DNA from: Methanomicrobia archaeon
GTDB taxonomy: Archaea; Halobacteriota; Syntropharchaeia; Alkanophagales; Methanospirareceae
Direction of reading: 5' to 3'
Assembly (NCBI GenBank): GCA_016930255.1
Contig: JAFGHB010000063.1
Location: 1-40,786, forward strand
Length of the DNA: 40,786 nt
A program made the position numbers and the translations under genes. Shown here piece by piece: positions 24,000 through 40,786 of the stretch (the stretch's first letter is position 1; the number at the start of each line of letters is the position of its first letter). Under the pieces are notes generated by a model. The model made no database searches. It saw nothing but the letters and a program-made list of their open reading frames with translations, and was not told the origin of the DNA.

Positions 24000-25148
24000 C
24001 TACAATATCAATTTTATGGCAGGAATCCAATCATGGTAAACGCGTCCATTCACGTCCGTGAATGTGGTGCAGGTGATTTCCCCTCCCGATAAACTCAACT
24101 TTTTAAGATGGAGGGCTTGTCGTGGGTACGAGCCCGTTTTTAGCGTGTAGTTGTACCTCACGTAAGCTTGTAACGTGATGGGAGCGCTAAACGAGAGATT
24201 GTGCCAGTCATTATCGTAACCAGTCCAGGTGGCTTCTGTGAGCAGCGTTCCGTTCGGATAATAGAAAGCAACGTGCTCCGTATGGCCACCGGTGCCCTCA
24301 CAGTAATACGTATAGAGCGTTTGCACCGTTAGCGGGTGATAAGGCATAATCGTACCGTTGTAGGTGCCTGCTATGCTCGGGTACGTTCCCACACCGGTGT
24401 CAAAGGTCGTCGCGGTGAAGCGTACGGTTGTTTTATTGATTAAAAGACCGATATCTTCGCTCGGGGTCACTTCCGCTGTGATGGTCGCCACACCGGGCTT
24501 CTTTCCTGCAGTTAACGTTGCCGTTGCCGTCCCGTTTTCAATCATGGCTGAAGGTGTTATCTCGCCTAAATCCGTGCTGAAATCCACAATTGGCCACATC
24601 CATATCCAATACTCTCCATCCCATACCGTTGCGTTAATGAACGAAGTCGAGACGCCATCTGCAGGGATCGCAGGAGGGTTTGCTGTGAGGTAAAGGGTAG
24701 GATTCGTCTCGTTTGGTGGTTCCGGTGGTTTCGGTATTTCGAGGTTAACGACGGTGGTTGTATTGGTGAGGAGTCCTATAGTGGGCATGTCAACGACAGC
24801 CGTAACGGTCGCCAGACCCGGTTCATATCCCGCGGTTAGTATCGCCGTTGCAGTCCCGTTCTCAATCGGTGCCGATGCCGTTATGTTTCCGCGATCGGTA
24901 CTGAAATTGACCAGTGGTCCGGACTGAATCCAACCTTCACCATCCCATACCGTTGCGGTGATCGTCGCTTGATCAACTCCGCCTACTCGGATCTCAGGCG
25001 GATCTGCGGTAAGGTAAAGCGCAGGCTGACCCGGCGTGGGTGAAAAGGATTGAGAGCCAAAGATCGAACTCGTCAGTAAGGCCGAAATTGCGAATAGTCC
25101 CATTATAGCTGCTTGCCATTTCACCTTTTGCGCCATCTTTTCTGCCAT
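24000..25148 (-). CDS. Secreted protein with two Big_1-like Ig domains and a C-terminal domain of unknown function
   Basis: 382 residues. The N-terminus has a basic start and a hydrophobic signal segment (about 11-28, ending near SSIFGSQS). Two invasin/Big_1-like Ig repeats follow (about 42-130 and 150-240), each reading LYLTA(D/N)PP...ATVWDGE...FSTD.G.IT.SA.IENGTATA.LTAG....G.AT(V/I)TA. The last 140 residues form a different module with GTYPSIAGTYNGTI, CEGTGGHTEH, DWHNLSF, TGSYPRQ and EITCTTFTD...DWIPAIKL. From memory, similar modules occur in secreted proteins of Methanomicrobia-related archaea, without a known function. There is no C-terminal membrane anchor, so it may be released or held non-covalently. 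N-glycosylation sequons are frequent. Confidence 0.85.
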   Translation of the reverse strand: MAEKMAQKVKWQAAIMGLFAISALLTSSIFGSQSFSPTPGQPALYLTADPPEIRVGGVDQATITATVWDGEGWIQSGPLVNFSTDRGNITASAPIENGTATAILTAGYEPGLATVTAVVDMPTIGLLTNTTTVVNLEIPKPPEPPNETNPTLYLTANPPAIPADGVSTSFINATVWDGEYWIWMWPIVDFSTDLGEITPSAMIENGTATATLTAGKKPGVATITAEVTPSEDIGLLINKTTVRFTATTFDTGVGTYPSIAGTYNGTIMPYHPLTVQTLYTYYCEGTGGHTEHVAFYYPNGTLLTEATWTGYDNDWHNLSFSAPITLQAYVRYNYTLKTGSYPRQALHLKKLSLSGGEITCTTFTDVNGRVYHDWIPAIKLIL

Positions 25149-32083: not shown

Positions 32084-32251
32084 AAGCTTTATAAAGGAGC
32101 AAAGAGAAAAGATGTTCACTCTCTCTATCGCCAGAAAGGAGAAGAGGCGAGGGGGGAGATGTAACGGTAGTATAAAAGGAAGGGGTGAAAAGGCGGAAGC
32201 TTTATATATCCCTCTTGCAATCAAAGCATTTAGGAGGTGAAAAGAAAAAAA
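32084..32251 (+). promoter_or_regulatory. Promoter and leader region of the S-layer-like gene
   Basis: Three TATA-like elements occur in 130 nt: aagctttataaa (32084-32095), gtataaaagg (32171-32180) and aagctttatatat (32198-32210). The last is placed to start transcription near 32235, just at the strong Shine-Dalgarno TAGGAGGTGA (32231-32240) before ATG 32252. The first and third share AAGCTTTATA, which suggests a duplicated promoter. Multiple promoters are usual for abundant envelope proteins. Confidence 0.6.
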
Positions 32252-35200
32252 ATGAATATCAAGAAGAATATAATAGGACTAACACTAGCGTTTATAATGG
32301 TTGCATCGATTTTTACCGTTTTACCAGTGGCAGCAGATGGCCCGACACCACCGAGCGGTGCGGACAATCCACTCATTCCAGTCGAAGATCCCTATTACGT
32401 CTCGTCACTGCGTGTCTACGGTGAATGTGACGAGGGCTACATGGGGATGGACTATGATGAGAAGGGACAGTTCGCCTATGTTAACATGACGGATCCGTTT
32501 GATCCGACGGTTCTCTACAAGGATTCGATTACCTTCGATCCCGCACTGATCATCGAGGCGGATTATGATATGATGTCCGCGGATAGTCACAATGTCTTCG
32601 AGAAGGCATTCTTGCGACTCTGGTACGAGCCAGAGCACCAGTATACCAAGCCAGCGTACATCCATCCAACGATCGAGGTCGAGACCACCTACATGCTGGT
32701 CGATGCGTCGGGGACGAGCGATAATGAACCCTGGCCTGGGTCCGCAAATACGACCTATTTCGTATTCCCCATCGTCGAGCTGCCACTTGGTCAGACTGGA
32801 CTCGGTGATGTTGAGAATAATGTAACAGGAGACCGCGCGAATATGGTGGATCTTGTGCTCGTCGAGGGCACTACCGCGCCGAACGGAACCACACCACAGG
32901 GCAAGATCGCGATAGAGAAGGGCTATACGTTAGAGGCTGGCGATACTATCCAGTTCCTCGATCACAAGTTGCGACTCGACTATGTCGTGGAGCGTGACGG
33001 CGTAAAGTTCGCGAAGGTAACGATGTGGTATGCAGGGAACATGGCCGACGATACGAGGGTTCGCCTCTTGTTAGGCGAGTACGACGATGGATCTCCGGAC
33101 GCACCGAGGGATAATACCTACTTCAAGCGGCACAACGAACGATACAGCACGCCATCTCACACGTACCCGGCTTTCAGAACTTGGTACGCGCGATTTGATG
33201 CCCCAGTGGGAGACACTGGCGCGGAGATCTACGTAGGTATGGAGCTTGCAGCAAATGACACGTTCTACGTGAACGGCGTCAGGTACGATGTGCCAGCAGT
33301 AGGAGTCGTCGATACAAACGGTGACGACGTGGCAGACAAGTACAAGTATATCACCCTGAGGACGCCATTACCCAAGGCGGAAGATGGCGAGCAGGTCCCG
33401 GATGACGGTAAAGCGTCATCACAGTGGCTTGACACCATCAGGGTAACCGAGCAGATTCCGCTGCTCCCACCGTTCAATGTGGAGCATCGAATCGTGGAGG
33501 ACATCAACTACTATGGTACCGAATCACCTGCCGACCGAACGCTCGATGTACCGGCACTGGCATTCTGTTATGTCGAAGAGGACATCGATGAGCGATACTC
33601 GACCGATCTGCTCGAGGTTCTGAACGAGGTCAATCGCTATAACCAATCGCTACCACCTTTCGAGAACTGGACAAAGGAGGACATTCAAACGAGGCCTGAC
33701 CAGTATACCGCGTTTGCACTCCCGTGGAACGGGACTACACCATCGCCGGATCCCGGCGAGCCGTGGTACTACCTGCTCACTACCTCGTTCTACGCACCGA
33801 ATTCGATCAACCTCTCGACTCTGTCATCACCGGGCGGTATCCCGCGCGCAGCGTTCGTGCACGACGCACGGCCTGGTTACGAGCAGGACATCTACGTGAA
33901 CTTCCCGGGTGCGGGCATTGATGGGAACCTGTCGGTCCGTGTTTACGGTGAGGATGACATAGGGCCGTATCCAGAATACGCCGCATTAGGTGGAGGGCTC
34001 TTCCATTACGAGGACTACACACAGCCATTCGATCCAGCAGCGATACGGAAAGATTCGATCACGTTCAATCCAGCGATCCTGCAGTGGAATGCCGCCAACT
34101 ATCCAATGTCGGCGGACTCGGAGAATATCGACCTGAAGAAGTACCTGCGGATCTGGTACGAGCCAGAGCACAACTACAGCAAGCCGAATCCCGATTATCC
34201 AGACACTTACTACACGTATCCGACGATCGAGGTAGAGACGACGTACTTGCTCATCGATCGGCAGGATAAGTTGCCGATCACCGGTTCGGGCAATACGACG
34301 TTCTTCGCATTCCCGATCGTTGCCGATCCCGATACAGAGCAGCCAGGGCTCGATCTCTTCGAGAACCCAAATATGGGTGAGCAGGCTACCAGGGAGAACG
34401 TGGTGACCTTGCAGTACGTCTATGGTACGGTTGACCCGTACTGGAAGACGGTCTACGATAACGCGACGATCCGTATCCAGAAGACCTACACGTTGAATCT
34501 CGACGATAGGGTGGACTTTATGGATATCGGGCTGCAATTGGAAGACCTCGGGATGACCGGCGCATCAGTGCGTCTATTTGCACTCAGAAATAACAACGAC
34601 GGCGCTCATTTCGGACAAAATGCAGGTCAATCGTTACCCTACTACGAGCGGCGATACGTCGATTCGGAGAGTTTGGATGACTTTGCGGATGTGCGCTATC
34701 CGGACCGCACGTGGTACGCGGTGGTAGAGGACAGGGATCCATCGGAGACTAACAAGAGCTGGGCAACGATTACCGTGGGTAAGGAGCTCAGAGCGGGTGA
34801 CGTGTTCTACGTCGACGGTGTCCGGTACGACATCGTGGCGATCGAGGTCGTCGACACGGACGGTGACGGCGTTGCGGACGAATTCAAGTACATCACCTTG
34901 AAGACGCCCTTGCCGAAGTGTGTCGAGGAGCTGGAACTACAGTACGATCCGTTCCCAGAGCTACCGGATGACGGCATCATCAGCTCGACGTGGATCGTCT
35001 GTGTGCCGCCAGAAGAGCCCATACCCTTGAACCCACCGTTCAACATGGAGCATCAGATCGTGGATGACATCGACGTGCCGCTGTGGGAGCCGACGGCTCA
35101 CATAGCTGAGTGGCCAATCGGGAACCCGGCGGGTGTCTATGGCTCCACATACTTCCCGTGGGGCGAGCGCTACGTGACGATGCAGCATCCTGAGGAGGAC

Positions 35201-36418
35201 ATCTACTGTGGCCTGTATAACGGCTCTACATGGGTATCCTACTTCGTTGCGGTGCAGGTGAACACCAACCCGGCGGATCCGAACGATCAGGGCTGGATCG
35301 CTTATGACGTCAAGGAACGGATCATTCCGGAGTTCTACGCTCCGTTAGAGGTGATCTGGGTTGACGAGACGTATGAGCCGCGATACACGACGAACCTGTG
35401 GGAGATACTCAACGAGACAATCACCGGTGATGAACCACCACTCGAGGACTGGTTCAGGTTTGACATCTACACGAGGCCGGACCAGTATACCGAGTTCGTG
35501 CTGCCTCCCGATAAGGAGCGCTGGAACTTCACGAGCAATCGCTGGAGGACACGCTTGCACAACGACTATCTCATAACCACCTCGTTCTTAGCGCCGAATG
35601 CAGAGGGAACGCTCTATGATCTTGCATACAACGAATCCAGGAGAGCTGCATTCGTCTTCGATGCGATCGAGACGAGCGGCATCTACGTCAACGAGCTTAC
35701 GGACACCGGCTTGCCATGGCCAGGGAACAACACGCCGAACGTGATGGTCATACTCGACAATACAAGTGTGGAAGGCTGCATGGAGGTGACGCTAACAACG
35801 GATGGAACGACCCACGATGCGTGGCCGCTGCTCTTCTGGGTAGACTGGGATGATGGCACCGTCTCTGAGGAGCAACTGGTCCAGAACGGTCAGTTCGCAA
35901 CCTTTGTGAAGTCGTACACCGAAGCAGGAACGTACAACATCAAGGTCTACGCAAAGGACATCTACGACAAGATCGGCGTGAACGATACCGAGAGTATCAC
36001 GGTCACCAGCGACTGTTTCGTCCTGACCTTCTATCCGGGCTGGAACGCGTTCTCTGTACCACTTACCGGTGAGCCAGTTAGTACGGTAGCCTCGGAATCC
36101 TGGGTCTCTGCTGGTCAGGTCTGGCAGTACGACTGGGACTCTGAATGGTCAGTAGTAGTTGCGGGTGATTTCGATCCCGACAGAGGCTACTTCGTCTACA
36201 AGACCACACCGGGTACGGCGACGGTCGTCGTCAGTGGTACCAAGGCGGAATTCAATGAGGCTGCAGCAATCTTCCAGGCAGGAGAGTGGAACCTGCGTGG
36301 TGCGGGCTGGACAGCGGATACTGAGGCCTACTGGCTGTACTACTTCTTCCCGTCAACGCAGACCTACGGACCAACGCACAACGTCGGACGCGGTAAGGGC
36401 TACTTCACCAAGTTCTAA
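32252..36418 (+). CDS. Large S-layer-like surface protein: two long tandem repeats, a PKD-like domain and a C-terminal module
   Basis: 1388 residues from ATG 32252 (the frame also opens at GTG 32237, inside the ribosome-binding leader). Signal peptide: NIKKNIIGLTLAFIMVASIF up to VAADG. Two homologous regions follow, roughly 500 and 590 residues. Matching blocks include KDSITFDPAL/KDSITFNPAI, LRLWYEPEHQY/LRIWYEPEHNY, PTIEVETTYMLVD/PTIEVETTYLLID, DTFYVNGVRYDVPAV/DVFYVDGVRYDIVAI, KYITLRTPLPK/KYITLKTPLPK and TRPDQYTAF/TRPDQYTEF. A PKD-like domain (ending near VNDTESITVT) and a terminal GWNAFSVPL module, which includes RGYFVYKTTPGT, end the protein. Many N-x-S/T sequons and acidic residues fit a glycosylated S-layer subunit. 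There is no C-terminal transmembrane anchor. S-layer identity is inferred from architecture, size and promoter strength. Confidence 0.8.
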   Translation: MNIKKNIIGLTLAFIMVASIFTVLPVAADGPTPPSGADNPLIPVEDPYYVSSLRVYGECDEGYMGMDYDEKGQFAYVNMTDPFDPTVLYKDSITFDPALIIEADYDMMSADSHNVFEKAFLRLWYEPEHQYTKPAYIHPTIEVETTYMLVDASGTSDNEPWPGSANTTYFVFPIVELPLGQTGLGDVENNVTGDRANMVDLVLVEGTTAPNGTTPQGKIAIEKGYTLEAGDTIQFLDHKLRLDYVVERDGVKFAKVTMWYAGNMADDTRVRLLLGEYDDGSPDAPRDNTYFKRHNERYSTPSHTYPAFRTWYARFDAPVGDTGAEIYVGMELAANDTFYVNGVRYDVPAVGVVDTNGDDVADKYKYITLRTPLPKAEDGEQVPDDGKASSQWLDTIRVTEQIPLLPPFNVEHRIVEDINYYGTESPADRTLDVPALAFCYVEEDIDERYSTDLLEVLNEVNRYNQSLPPFENWTKEDIQTRPDQYTAFALPWNGTTPSPDPGEPWYYLLTTSFYAPNSINLSTLSSPGGIPRAAFVHDARPGYEQDIYVNFPGAGIDGNLSVRVYGEDDIGPYPEYAALGGGLFHYEDYTQPFDPAAIRKDSITFNPAILQWNAANYPMSADSENIDLKKYLRIWYEPEHNYSKPNPDYPDTYYTYPTIEVETTYLLIDRQDKLPITGSGNTTFFAFPIVADPDTEQPGLDLFENPNMGEQATRENVVTLQYVYGTVDPYWKTVYDNATIRIQKTYTLNLDDRVDFMDIGLQLEDLGMTGASVRLFALRNNNDGAHFGQNAGQSLPYYERRYVDSESLDDFADVRYPDRTWYAVVEDRDPSETNKSWATITVGKELRAGDVFYVDGVRYDIVAIEVVDTDGDGVADEFKYITLKTPLPKCVEELELQYDPFPELPDDGIISSTWIVCVPPEEPIPLNPPFNMEHQIVDDIDVPLWEPTAHIAEWPIGNPAGVYGSTYFPWGERYVTMQHPEEDIYCGLYNGSTWVSYFVAVQVNTNPADPNDQGWIAYDVKERIIPEFYAPLEVIWVDETYEPRYTTNLWEILNETITGDEPPLEDWFRFDIYTRPDQYTEFVLPPDKERWNFTSNRWRTRLHNDYLITTSFLAPNAEGTLYDLAYNESRRAAFVFDAIETSGIYVNELTDTGLPWPGNNTPNVMVILDNTSVEGCMEVTLTTDGTTHDAWPLLFWVDWDDGTVSEEQLVQNGQFATFVKSYTEAGTYNIKVYAKDIYDKIGVNDTESITVTSDCFVLTFYPGWNAFSVPLTGEPVSTVASESWVSAGQVWQYDWDSEWSVVVAGDFDPDRGYFVYKTTPGTATVVVSGTKAEFNEAAAIFQAGEWNLRGAGWTADTEAYWLYYFFPSTQTYGPTHNVGRGKGYFTKF
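32402..35700 (+). repeat. Internal tandem duplication within the S-layer-like gene
   Basis: Repeat A spans about 32402-33900 and repeat B about 33922-35700. Both start with a (S)LRVYGE/SVRVYGE element and end with a (D/G)IYVN element. Repeat B carries an additional insert of about 90 residues (WGERYVTMQHPEEDIYCGLY region, 35161-35335). Divergence at protein level is substantial, so the duplication is old. Confidence 0.8.
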
Positions 36419-36462
36419 CGACACGAAACAAAACCAAACTTACAAGATAGAAGAGAAGAGAA

Positions 36463-36500
36463 GAAAGTGGGATATTTTTTATTCCCACTTTCGTTTTTTA
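36463..36500 (+). terminator. Stem-loop terminator after the S-layer-like gene
   Basis: A perfect 10-bp inverted repeat GAAAGTGGGA (36463-36472) and TCCCACTTTC (36483-36492) encloses an AT loop and is followed by G then T6. This is an unusually clean intrinsic-style terminator for this window, 45 nt after the stop of what is probably a highly transcribed gene. Confidence 0.7.
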
Positions 36501-36730
36501 TTTTCCACACGTATTTTCTTTTTTTGGTGCTTACTTACCACCAGTACAGACATTATGCAGTAACTCGGGATCTTTCTCTCGCCCGTGGGGTTACGATTGG
36601 TGTAACAACAATCCACGTACTCCTTGCGGCAGGCAATATCTCCTTTTCAACTACCAATTACGTAGCGTAGCATCTTGGGACGACGATTACCACTTCGCTC
36701 GTGATAAACCAAAGTGATTCGTAGCTATCC
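36501..36730. other. Non-coding spacer between the S-layer terminator and the next promoter
   Basis: The gap between genes (36419-36805) contains the terminator at its start and a promoter at its end. In between I see no convincing ORF: the 67-residue frame at 36467 reads through the terminator stem and lacks a ribosome-binding site. No repeat or RNA fold was recognised here. Confidence 0.5.
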
Positions 36731-36805: not shown

Positions 36806-37537
36806 ATGAGAAGAAGGAGTTTGGGATTAGAGTTTGTGATTACGCTGGTTCTATTCGCGTCACTGCTGGTTGTGCCGGCACTGTGTGCTACTCTCCCTCC
36901 ACTGCCAGAGACAATGCCGCCATCCGTATTCCTCACGGCAGATCCGACGTCAATTACGGCCGACGGGAGTTCAACAGCGACGATTACCGCAACGGTGTGG
37001 GAAGGAGAGGATTGGATATCCTATGGAGTCACCGTTGAGTTCAGCACCGATCTTGGCGAGATTACCGGGTCGGTACCCCTCAATGATACTGCAGCAACAG
37101 CAACGCTAACCGCAGGAACAACCGCAGGTACAGCGACTATCTCGGCGGAAGTGAGTTTGTACGGCGACATTTTAACCAATACAACCACCGTCACCTTTAC
37201 GTCCCCCGGAGACGGGGGCAACGGCGGTAACGGCGGAGGTGGTGGCGGAGGCGGTGGAGGTACGACGACCACCCCGACACCAACCGCAACGACATCGCCG
37301 GGTGTAACGCCAACGCCAACCACAACGTCAACGGAAACACCGGGTCCAACGGCAGGAGCAACCACTGCACCGACGGGAACACCAGGCGCAACGCCAGCAC
37401 CAACTACAACTGCACCTACAGCAGCAACACCGGCTCCGGCGACACCAACGCCTGAAGAGCCCGGTTTTGGAGCAGTATTCGCCATTGCAGGCTTGTTAGC
37501 AGTTGCCTATCTGCTGCTGTGGAGAAGGCCCGAGTAA
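36806..37537 (+). CDS. Surface protein with one Big_1-like domain, Thr/Pro stalk and PGF-CTERM tail
   Basis: 243 residues. Signal peptide LEFVITLVLFASLLVVPALC, then one Big_1/invasin-like Ig domain (about 38-132), with FLTADPTSITADGSSTATIT and FSTDLGEITGSV closely resembling the repeats of the protein at 24000-25148. A glycine run (about 134-151) leads to a 60-residue Thr/Pro/Ala stalk, likely O-glycosylated. The C-terminus is a tripartite sorting signal: PGF motif (codons 37460-37468), hydrophobic helix AVFAIAGLLAVAYLLL and basic end WRRPE. Proteins with PGF-CTERM are cleaved and lipid-anchored by archaeosortases. An archaeosortase-like gene lies 178 nt downstream. It may be a cell-surface adhesin or S-layer accessory protein. 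Confidence 0.9.
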   Translation: MRRRSLGLEFVITLVLFASLLVVPALCATLPPLPETMPPSVFLTADPTSITADGSSTATITATVWEGEDWISYGVTVEFSTDLGEITGSVPLNDTAATATLTAGTTAGTATISAEVSLYGDILTNTTTVTFTSPGDGGNGGNGGGGGGGGGGTTTTPTPTATTSPGVTPTPTTTSTETPGPTAGATTAPTGTPGATPAPTTTAPTAATPAPATPTPEEPGFGAVFAIAGLLAVAYLLLWRRPE

Positions 37538-37715: not shown

Positions 37716-38351
37716 ATGAGTAAACAGAAGAAAGGGAAGGGCCAGAGGAGCAAAGAGAGGAGCAAAGCAGGCACAGGTAAGAAGCTTGAGCAAGGAGAGA
37801 AGGGGCATACCATTACCTTTTCGGTTAAAAAGGATCTCGTAAATCCCATATTGGAACGGGTGCGAGAGAACAGAGAGACGCTGCAGTACGTAGCGCTCTT
37901 CCTCTCCTTTTGTATCGCGTTTTATCTTTTTTATTACTTTCTCGCGATTCGCAGTTCAACGGCACTAGCGCATTTGAATGAGATCACCGCGAGTATTTTG
38001 GGTACACTCTTCGCGGTAGGAGGTGCGCATGTGGTAGTCGACGGAGCGGTGGTAACGATCAACGGGTTCTCACTGGAGATAATAGACGAATGCACGGCTG
38101 TTTTTTCCTCGATTGTCTATTCCGCATGCATCCTGGCATATCCGACCACGTTAAAGAATAAAGGGCTGGGCGTCGCCTTTGGTGTGCCTCTTCTCTATGC
38201 GATCAATATGGTTCGTCTTCTTGTCATCACCCTCGTTGGCCTCTCCGCACCGCATCTCTTCGAGTTTGTGCACGTCTATCTCTGGCAGGCTTCGTTCATC
38301 ATCTTTGTGGTGGTAATCTTTTTACTCTGGCTCAAGCTGATTGTGAAGTGA
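37716..38351 (+). CDS. Exosortase/archaeosortase family protein, XrtH-like
   Basis: Membrane transpeptidase that processes C-terminal sorting signals. 211 residues: a lysine-rich cytosolic N-terminus (1-50) and about five hydrophobic helices. The catalytic triad can be placed: Cys in IIDECTAVFSSIVYSA, Arg in YAINMVRLLVIT and His in FEFVHVYLWQASFI. The LAYPTT after the Cys helix and the general spacing resemble exosortase H more than the larger ArtA. A TATA-like tttttaattt lies at 37642-37651. The likely substrate next door ends in a PGF-CTERM tail, which is normally an ArtA signal. The next gene is the usual partner of XrtH-type enzymes, 54 nt downstream. Confidence 0.9.
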   Translation: MSKQKKGKGQRSKERSKAGTGKKLEQGEKGHTITFSVKKDLVNPILERVRENRETLQYVALFLSFCIAFYLFYYFLAIRSSTALAHLNEITASILGTLFAVGGAHVVVDGAVVTINGFSLEIIDECTAVFSSIVYSACILAYPTTLKNKGLGVAFGVPLLYAINMVRLLVITLVGLSAPHLFEFVHVYLWQASFIIFVVVIFLLWLKLIVK

Positions 38352-38405: not shown

Positions 38406-38999
38406 ATGACCCGAAAAGCGAACAAAAAGCGGAAAGCGAAGGCGAAGAAGAAGTTGGAAGGCGCTGAGGGAGTAAAAGAAAAAGAAGAAGAAAAAGAAGA
38501 CAAGCCGCTCCTTTTTGGCTTAACTGACCGGCAGATGGTGCTCTTTTTGCTGGGCTTTATGCTGGTTTCCGCGGTCTTGTTAGGCGTGTGGTACTCTATC
38601 GGCGAGTTTTACCAGGCTGCGGTCTTCTTCGTCGCCCGGCATATTCTGCTGCTCATGGGCTATCCCGCTGCTCAGATCTCCGCGATGGATTTCTCGGGTG
38701 CATACCTCGTGAATTTCAATTTGGTGCCGTTACTCGCCTTAGCGATCGCAACGCCGAAGTTGGCAATGCGGCGGCGATTGGAGATGCTCGCGATTGGCAT
38801 ACCGATTCTGTTCCTTCTGCACGTGCTCGATATCGTTGCGCATCTTCCCTATTTCATTGAGCTCCACTATATGCACCGTCTGGGGTTTGCGACACTGGTG
38901 GTCGATTCACTGGGGGTTATTGGCCTCGCCGTGGTCTTTGGTATCTGGTTCGTGATCTGCTATCAGGAGTTTTTTAGAGGCGAGCAGGCCTTACGCTAA
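38406..38999 (+). CDS. Archaeosortase/exosortase-H-associated membrane protein
   Basis: 197 residues. A lysine/glutamate-rich N-terminal 40 residues lies before four hydrophobic helices (about 45-68, 72-92, 128-147 and 165-187). The central segment AYLVNFNLVPLLALAIATPK and the following RRRLEMLAIGIPILFLLHVL resemble, from memory, the membrane protein encoded next to exosortase H in bacteria. Its role is unknown; it may help present the sorting signal or hold the enzyme in the membrane. Both proteins of the pair carry similarly charged N-termini that might interact. It lies 54 nt after the archaeosortase gene, presumably in one transcript. Confidence 0.75.
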   Translation: MTRKANKKRKAKAKKKLEGAEGVKEKEEEKEDKPLLFGLTDRQMVLFLLGFMLVSAVLLGVWYSIGEFYQAAVFFVARHILLLMGYPAAQISAMDFSGAYLVNFNLVPLLALAIATPKLAMRRRLEMLAIGIPILFLLHVLDIVAHLPYFIELHYMHRLGFATLVVDSLGVIGLAVVFGIWFVICYQEFFRGEQALR

Positions 39000-39276: not shown

Positions 39277-40786
39277 ATGAACAATACATTTAGAAGAGAC
39301 TTTACAAGCGAGACTAAAAGGAGGATTGATAAGAATAAAAAAGCGTTAGGAATAGTTTTAGCGGCGATTTTGCTGACGATGGCATTCGTGGCGATGGCAC
39401 CTGCGGTGGCGGCACAACCGATAATAGTCGATGGTAACAACAGTGATTGGGAGGGATTAGCGGGAGTACAGTGCGTTTCTGATGGCTTTGGGGATATTTA
39501 TATTGTTAACAAGACGCCATTTGTCAACGGCTATGACATTCTTGAGTTCTGTATGTTCTACGACGTAGCAAATGATACCATTTACTTCAAATTCGATGTA
39601 GCCGGAGTTCCTGGTGATACCGATGGAGATGGAGACCCCAACGATACGTCGGATCCAGACAACATAACCGATAGCTTTGAGGTAGGCCCGAATGATGCCT
39701 ACAAAGCATTGATAGATCTGGATGCTGACCCATCTGTAGACTTCCGATTATCATATCGCAACAATACGGTATTTATGAAAGTGGGGTTTTCCGATGATAC
39801 TATAGTCCCTGGAACTACAGCAGGATCGATAGGCCCACCCTATTCAAATGACACCATAGTGGAGATGAGCTATTATCCACTGCATAATTTGACGGGCTTC
39901 GGGGAGTGCAATGATTTCGAGATAAGAGGCTGGGCCGGAAGTCAGGAAGAGGGGCTCGGTGAAGATGATACGAGTGACCTCTTATTGAACGAAGTGCCAG
40001 AACCCATAATAATAACAGAGAATGTCTGTTTCTGCAATAATGTCACCTTTAACGGGTCAGCTTCGTATGACCCTGATGGGACCATAACGAATTGGACGTG
40101 GGACTTTGGTGATGGCTACTTCGACTACGGACCGATCGTCGAGCACCATTATGACGAACCGGGAGAGTATGCGGTCACGTTGAGTGTGACAGACGATTTT
40201 AACGCCGTATGCTCGAATACGACGACCAACGTAACGGTTTGGGAGAACCCGATAGCGAACTTCACGGCACCACCGGTCTGTAACGGGACGACCACACAGT
40301 TTACCGATACGTCAACAAACGGAAGTGGTAACATAACCAACTGGACATGGAACTTTGGAGATAACACGTCGCTAAATTACACACAGCATCCGGCGCACAC
40401 GTATGCTGCGGCTGGAAATTATACTGTGACGCTTAATATTACAGATGAGAATAACTGTACGAATACCACGAGCAAGAATGTAACGGTGTGGGAGAACCCA
40501 GAAGCGAACTTCACGTTTGTTAACACCTGCTTCTGCACGAACGTGACCTTTACTGACACATCAGTGGAGGGAGATGCGAATATAGCGGTGCGGAGTTGGC
40601 AATTTGGCGACGGTAACGTGAGCACGGCTACGAATCCGACGTGGCACTATGCGGCACCCGGGAAGTATGAGGTGAACCTGACGGTAACTGACGAGCACGG
40701 CTGCAACGACACGATAAGCAAGTGGGTGCAGGTGTACGCGAACCCGGAGGCGAACTTCTCGTTCAATAACACGTGCTTCTGCACGA
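39277..40786 (+). CDS. Secreted multi-PKD-domain surface protein (partial, runs off right edge)
   Basis: An open frame of 503 codons without a stop. A basic stretch is followed by a signal helix LGIVLAAILLTMAFVAMAPA and a likely cleavage at VAA-QP. Residues of about 48-235 form a sugar-binding or DOMON/CBM9-like region starting IIVDGNNSDWEGLAG, with an acidic Asp-rich turn DTDGDGDPNDTSDPDN that could bind calcium. At least three PKD repeats follow (WTWDFGDG, WTWNFGDN, WQFGDGN), each ending in an LNVTVTD-type strand. A cysteine signature (VCFCNNVTF, TCFCTNVTF, TCFCT) opens most repeats. N-glycosylation sequons are dense. It is a probable cell-surface or extracellular matrix component; the C-terminal anchor is beyond the window. 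Confidence 0.88.
   Translation, partial: MNNTFRRDFTSETKRRIDKNKKALGIVLAAILLTMAFVAMAPAVAAQPIIVDGNNSDWEGLAGVQCVSDGFGDIYIVNKTPFVNGYDILEFCMFYDVANDTIYFKFDVAGVPGDTDGDGDPNDTSDPDNITDSFEVGPNDAYKALIDLDADPSVDFRLSYRNNTVFMKVGFSDDTIVPGTTAGSIGPPYSNDTIVEMSYYPLHNLTGFGECNDFEIRGWAGSQEEGLGEDDTSDLLLNEVPEPIIITENVCFCNNVTFNGSASYDPDGTITNWTWDFGDGYFDYGPIVEHHYDEPGEYAVTLSVTDDFNAVCSNTTTNVTVWENPIANFTAPPVCNGTTTQFTDTSTNGSGNITNWTWNFGDNTSLNYTQHPAHTYAAAGNYTVTLNITDENNCTNTTSKNVTVWENPEANFTFVNTCFCTNVTFTDTSVEGDANIAVRSWQFGDGNVSTATNPTWHYAAPGKYEVNLTVTDEHGCNDTISKWVQVYANPEANFSFNNTCFCT

Follow-up and report, generated by a model that had tools for sequence, protein, structure and literature searches.

How do the anaerobic methanotrophic archaea of the ANME-1 group build their envelope, and how do electrons exit through it? 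The group is said to lack a surface layer (S-layer; Timmers 2017, PMC5244752), and the point is called unresolved in a later account (Chadwick 2022, PMC9012536). The question is addressed here through slp, the gene of a secreted duplicated-repeat surface protein at 32252..36418 of the window, that is, the whole stretch of 40,786 nucleotides analysed (contig JAFGHB010000063.1, or C63, of assembly GCA_016930255.1, here G000; 2.23 Mb, 87 contigs, 95% complete). The assembly is that of an ANME-1 (Methanophagales) archaeon within Syntropharchaeia. The reading favoured here, to which we give about an even chance, is that slp encodes an exported subunit of a multi-component coat of S-layer type, which would be tethered non-covalently by a partner encoded next door and would probably be an accessory to the main S-layer or an alternative to it. 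With slp and a glycoprotein of the MEMAR type encoded elsewhere in the same genome, there are two testable candidates for the ANME-1 envelope in one genome.

A duplicated, exported and anchorless protein

Read from its ATG, slp is an open frame of 1388 residues; residue numbers are counted from the GTG at 32237 (1393 residues), and features are on the plus strand unless otherwise stated. The protein begins with a signal peptide (MNIKKNIIGLTLAFIMVASIFTVLPVAA, 32252..32335), which is the sole stretch with the hydropathy of a membrane helix. This is followed by repeat 1 (residues 57-555, 499 residues, 32405..33901; profile match 1-526 of 526) and repeat 2 (residues 566-1152, 587 residues, 33932..35692, also placed by profile), whose core (repeat residues ~40-330) is the confidently modelled part and has DUF1608 as its best match. 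A weak PKD-like linker domain (35726..36004; PKD_4, E=0.042, below the cut-off) leads to the C-terminal GWN module (36005..36415), recognised by an iterated profile search with 20 matches.

The two repeats align locally with a score of 738 and 230/477 identical positions (48%), the top score among 50 shuffles being 70; in the family alignment their identity is 45%. Neither repeat matches a Pfam or NCBIfam model (hmmscan), and comparison of slp with PDB chains by sequence gave nothing convincing among solved structures. An earlier note on this DNA had described two unrecognised repeats of about 500 and 590 residues and a C-terminal GWNAFSVP module without transmembrane helix, and both descriptions hold: the hydropathy scan of slp finds no hydrophobic segment beyond the signal peptide and no C-terminal membrane helix, and the module has homologues. 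The start that it gave, ATG 32252, is likewise borne out by sequence inspection, as this codon stands eleven bases past a Shine-Dalgarno sequence (GGAGGTGA, 32233-32240) and is preceded by a TATA-like box (TTTATATAT, 32201-32209; both within 32201..32251). The alternative start, GTG 32237, falls within the Shine-Dalgarno sequence and is therefore the poorer choice; the sigma-70-style promoter scanner is unsuited to archaea. The product is acidic (isoelectric point 4.2), has 21 N-glycosylation sequons and is present as a single copy in its own genome.

A profile search with the repeat, as the earlier note had proposed, recovers the family in ANME-1, other archaea and Anaerolineae. When genome contigs were scanned, the single slp protein found nothing, and the repeat alignment A4 gave 48 loci. 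By this profile, homologues occur in 15/51 ANME-1 genomes, in seven of the 14 genera, and in 29/393 genomes of the phylum, those outside ANME-1 being two Syntropharchaeia, Methanolobus, GoM-Arc1 (G388, LR991653.1) and one member of the Archaeoglobaceae (G188). Further loci in a named collection come from Methanoperedens, an ANME-2 contig, metagenome-assembled genomes of Thermoplasmata and a dozen Chloroflexota loci, and slp is found in 24 of 249 genomes of the class Anaerolineae (sampled as the class of one Chloroflexota genome), mostly in one copy each. One copy per genome is seen in most cases across the family, and every complete homologue has two repeats, save those of G188 and the ANME-2 contig. 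Because the family extends to cultivated Methanolobus, the role of slp is testable outside uncultured consortia.

Identity between repeat 1 and repeat 2 is 85-87% in GoM-Arc1, G040 and G022 and 36-59% in other ANME-1 proteins, so that duplication or homogenisation must have taken place more than once. The slp of G022, an ANME-1 genome (locus L036, G022:C132), groups with those of G040 and G188, apart from other ANME-1, and this grouping suggests horizontal transfer; judged by sequence, horizontal replacement at this locus is likely. The same protein is about 60% identical to the repeats of G040 (Syntropharchaeia) and only ~29% to those of other ANME-1. Three loci labelled Diapherotrites (L149), WOR-3 (L155) and CSSED10-310 (L165) carry slp of the kind seen in ANME-1 or Methanolobus. 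Their identity and their neighbours mark them as probably misbinned archaeal contigs, and they are not counted toward the wider spread, L155 still being among the 29 archaeal loci of the tether scoring given below. At L038 (G015:C2), in a long-read-like assembly, several frameshifts break the slp and tether genes, probably through sequencing error rather than decay. A viral origin of slp was rejected, there being no fold match in BFVD below 0.001, no viral contigs and no plasmids.

In a search of the relatives, the alpha subunit of methyl-coenzyme M reductase (MCR) is found mostly as one divergent copy per genome in the host's own family and as 2-5 copies in several sister families, and the rest of the phylum has methanogen-type copies. 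This is the pattern of ANME-1 within Syntropharchaeia. MCR alpha was not found in the 95% complete G000, nor in its congeners G001 and G004, where assembly gaps are the probable cause.

Neighbouring genes and the candidate tether

The earlier note argued that the anchor must come from another protein, and named the PGF-CTERM neighbour as candidate. Gene order lends strong support to such a separately encoded, putative tether for the anchorless slp: an anchored or wall-binding protein follows slp almost everywhere, outside ANME-1 too. In the window, the candidate (36806..37537) combines an immunoglobulin (Ig)-like domain (Invasin_D3, 7.8e-14), a Thr/Pro stalk and a PGF-CTERM (3.1e-9), and the gene after slp in ANME-1 loci has this same composition. 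A C-terminal membrane helix is lacking from every slp homologue examined. By automated scoring, a protein with a signal peptide and a C-terminal anchor is the first or second downstream gene in 25/29 archaeal slp loci, against a background of 14/145 among the other genes of those loci; many of the loci are close relatives, several from the same genus, and hence the counts are not independent events. The four exceptions are L162 (contig end), L038 (frameshifted), L180 and L166; the downstream protein of L180 has an obvious PGF-CTERM-like tail, yet is unflagged by the scoring. An Ig-GWN protein sits between slp and the tether in G017 and G015, and the protein after the second slp copy of G025 ends with a VPALSP-type C-terminal helix. 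Elsewhere in the window, a gene on the minus strand (24000-25148) encodes a secreted protein whose two Invasin_D3 domains are relatives of the tether's Ig domain; the protein ends in a DUF4082-like domain and has no PGF-CTERM.

The order slp, cohesin-GWN adaptor, anchored protein is found in Methanolobus, Methanoperedens, GoM-Arc1 and Syntropharchaeia. Cohesin is recognised in the adaptors with E-values of 8.5e-22, 4e-39, 5.6e-46, 9.5e-32 and 1.9e-13, and dockerin at the slp end with 1.4e-10 and 1.1e-6 (G388, L185), more weakly in Methanolobus (0.017) and also weakly in Methanoperedens. For the window protein and its neighbour, a Pfam scan found neither dockerin on slp nor cohesin on the neighbour. 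All ANME-1 slp versions examined, the window's included, carry the GWN module (or an Ig/EF-hand-like end) in place of dockerin. Among the Chloroflexota, the two slp neighbours checked have one cohesin and three LysM domains each (cohesin and LysM, 1.7e-12 and 8.8e-52), and the same C-terminal motif is seen after slp in five further loci.

The 20 GWN matches, obtained by iterated search of the locus genes, all fall either in slp or in its immediate downstream neighbour. The module stands on the C-termini of ANME-1 slp and on the Ig-GWN neighbour, and elsewhere on the adaptor after slp; adaptors with a C-terminal GWN homologue are found in Methanolobus, Syntropharchaeia, GoM-Arc1 and Archaeoglobaceae. 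A module carried by slp in some of these groups and by the adjacent protein in the rest is a classical fusion pattern, which implies that slp and the adaptor or neighbour act together and lends indirect support to physical binding between them.

In the mechanism proposed here, slp would leave the cell via its signal peptide and be held at the surface by the partner encoded next door. In the ANME-1 host, the contact would be between the GWN module of slp (or the linker) and the Ig domain of the neighbour, which would stand on its Thr/Pro stalk and owe its lipid anchor to the PGF-CTERM. For most other archaea, the chain would run from a dockerin-like slp end to the cohesin-GWN adaptor and on to the C-terminally anchored protein, and in Anaerolineae the place of the anchor may be taken by a cohesin-LysM protein that binds peptidoglycan. 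An array would be formed by the repeats. A broader proposal holds that one S-layer-type tile family spans Archaea and Chloroflexota, its tile always anchorless and its tether swapped from envelope to envelope (lipid-anchored Ig stalk in ANME-1, cohesin-dockerin with membrane anchor in other Halobacteriota, or cohesin-LysM in Anaerolineae); this is tentative, and we regard it as somewhat doubtful. Dockerin and cohesin proteins of no known function have been discussed in ANME (Chadwick 2022, PMC9012536), and the slp family offers a concrete hypothesis for the function of some archaeal cohesin-dockerin pairs; if the modular tile kit is real, such pairs would help to keep a surface layer in place. 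With slp in Anaerolineae beside a predicted peptidoglycan-binding partner, the idea that Archaea and Bacteria have exchanged surface-coat genes also becomes checkable.

Further downstream lies a gene for an archaeosortase B/XrtH-like transpeptidase (37716..38351; TIGR04144, 8.5e-33, below the curated cut-off; TIGR04177, 1.2e-24) in which the Cys, Arg and His are kept, followed by a paralogue (38406..38999) that sequence comparison finds without the catalytic residues. Cys, Arg and His are present in 14/14 archaeosortase sequences and in 0/12 sequences of the paralogue. Among ANME-1 genomes, a strong archaeosortase homologue occurs in 14/15 of those with slp and in 3/36 of those lacking it (Fisher p = 7e-9, kinship not taken into account). 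In several Methanolobus, the gene just upstream of slp is a homologue of the dead paralogue. The dead paralogue is usually paired with an active enzyme, to which it is fused in some other ANME-1 (L127, L135, L136 and L137; 325-394 residues). In ANME-1 relatives a vWA protein with a VPxxxP-type C-terminus adjoins the archaeosortase. The window closes with a secreted PKD-repeat protein (39277..40785), cut by the contig end, which has a homologue near slp in G004.

What kind of coat slp may form

The AlphaFold models of slp repeat 2 (n=2) have a mean predicted local distance difference test score (pLDDT) of 58 and 69.5, the core reaching near 90 in the second. For both models the best PDB match is the Methanosarcina DUF1608 S-layer domain 3u2g (E 2.7e-4 and 3.9e-4), and for the better one 3u2h ranks second (E 2.2e-3). 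On these models, the slp repeats are likely to be distantly related, or else analogous, to the DUF1608 tile of S-layers. The earlier note had called the repeats larger than the Methanosarcina domain and alike in duplication only; the size difference stands, the slp repeat being twice as long, and the restriction to duplication is not supported as worded, DUF1608 being the best fold match in two models, with poor superposition and unlinked profiles. Homology by sequence between slp and DUF1608 is rejected, as only the fold search points to that family, and PF07752 matches are absent from slp (hmmscan) and from its whole genome.

The acidity and many sequons of slp, its co-inheritance with an archaeosortase and its codon usage, given below, speak for the favoured reading of a tethered coat subunit. 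Several observations weigh against it. Foldseek gives TM-scores of only 0.11-0.24 to DUF1608, with a root-mean-square deviation of 20 A (a poor superposition), and hhalign comparison of 14- and 32-row repeat profiles with 20 DUF1608 domains was not significant. The gene is patchy in ANME-1 (15/51), though gaps in the assemblies matter here, as slp borders a contig end in several of them. The tether gene is separated from slp by 387 bp that hold a hairpin followed by a T-rich tract (36463..36492; RNAfold -18.4 kcal/mol for 36453-36505), a probable terminator that is missing from the consensus scanner's list. Co-transcription was for this reason rejected as proof of the tether, and the two genes need not share a transcript. 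Finally, slp of Chloroflexota itself bears cohesin instead of dockerin, which makes the tether pairing there doubtful. A cohesin-dockerin tether as a universal device is doubtful for Chloroflexota and is rejected for ANME-1.

The serious rival, unlikely in our estimate, is that slp acts as a tethered adhesin or scaffold, forming no lattice and serving partner-cell contact or the display of proteins. Such a role would suit the vWA insertions in repeat 1 of several ANME-1 relatives, the cohesin and dockerin modules, and the patchy presence in syntrophic or consortium-living archaea and Anaerolineae. However, the two long repeats are strictly conserved and have a DUF1608-like fold in the models, which argues for a tile and not for a string of binding domains, and there is mostly one copy per genome. 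The vWA domain in repeat 1 is Pfam-checked in L032 and L034, and its insertion in L101, L103 and L105 is deduced from length.

Quite improbable, in our judgement, is that this ANME-1 has slp for its principal S-layer subunit, with the PGF-CTERM neighbour as tether, even though its size, acidity, sequons and single copy, the DUF1608 domain as top fold match, and the reports of ANME-1 without a recognised S-layer domain (PMC5244752, PMC9012536) would all agree with it. Its own genome also encodes a full-length, 772-residue homologue of the MEMAR-type S-layer glycoprotein (NF041431, E 9.7e-43; G000:C14:11375-13693, L146:5376-7694) with a PT stalk and its own PGF-CTERM, and relatives of ~740-830 residues are found across many ANME-1 genomes, slp-positive and slp-negative alike. 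For the Methanospirillum S-layer protein, orthologues were not found beyond Methanomicrobiales-type genera (PMC11641113); the predicted NF041431 proteins of ANME-1 extend this MEMAR/Methanospirillum-type family, at low similarity. A second MEMAR-type homologue (769 residues) is present on C40 of the same genome. The slp protein itself has no match to NF041431 or to other NCBIfam models. Moreover, slp is not detected in 36/51 ANME-1 assemblies, one of which is 98% complete and belongs to the window's own genus, and canonical DUF1608 S-layer proteins coexist with it in Methanolobus and GoM-Arc1. On these grounds the earlier claim that slp is the S-layer subunit does not stand as worded; it is partly supported and weakened only, because codon usage favours high expression of slp (90th percentile among 299 open reading frames) over the MEMAR-type gene (16th), a proxy built on three reference genes only and treated as a weak hint. 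Most likely, slp forms not the sole S-layer but an additional or alternative tethered one.

A role as an ANME-1 sheath component is very improbable: sheaths and their proteins are patchy in ANME-1 too, in about 40% of the order, but known sheath proteins are amyloid-like and often in many copies (Medvedeva 2024, PMC11576556), whereas slp is long and single-copy, no sheath structure is among the 50 fold matches listed, and the literature examined does not describe its relatives in Methanolobus and Anaerolineae as sheathed. A figure of the same study also marks the presence of S-layers, and an ANME-1 S-layer candidate may already be named there.

Comparison with known surface systems

Methanosarcina MA0829 (DUF1608, PF07752; 3u2g/3u2h) resembles slp, as modelled, in the tandem duplication of an all-beta unit. 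By contrast, the slp unit has double the length, no detectable sequence homology to it and no C-terminal membrane helix behind it; the two families coexist in Methanolobus. The MEMAR_RS02690/Methanospirillum Mhun_2263-type glycoprotein (NF041431) is, like slp, a secreted archaeal surface protein, and its PGF-CTERM anchor is shared by the candidate slp tether. However, that family has its own anchor and Ig-like domains (PMC11641113), whereas slp is anchorless and has no sequence match to it.

In arrangement, slp parallels SlaA/SlaB of the Sulfolobales, in which an anchorless outer protein is combined with a separate membrane-anchored protein (PMC12175726); a predicted anchored partner is likewise encoded nearby in 25/29 archaeal slp loci. 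No convincing sequence match links slp to any PDB chain, and the anchor in the slp system is a PGF-CTERM, a C-terminal helix or LysM, in many cases joined by a cohesin adaptor. Archaeal non-cellulosomal cohesin-dockerin pairs are likewise comparable, since relatives of slp place a cohesin adaptor beside a dockerin-ended protein. Unlike the other archaeal pairs, the cohesin and dockerin modules of the slp relatives belong to a fixed set of surface-protein genes.

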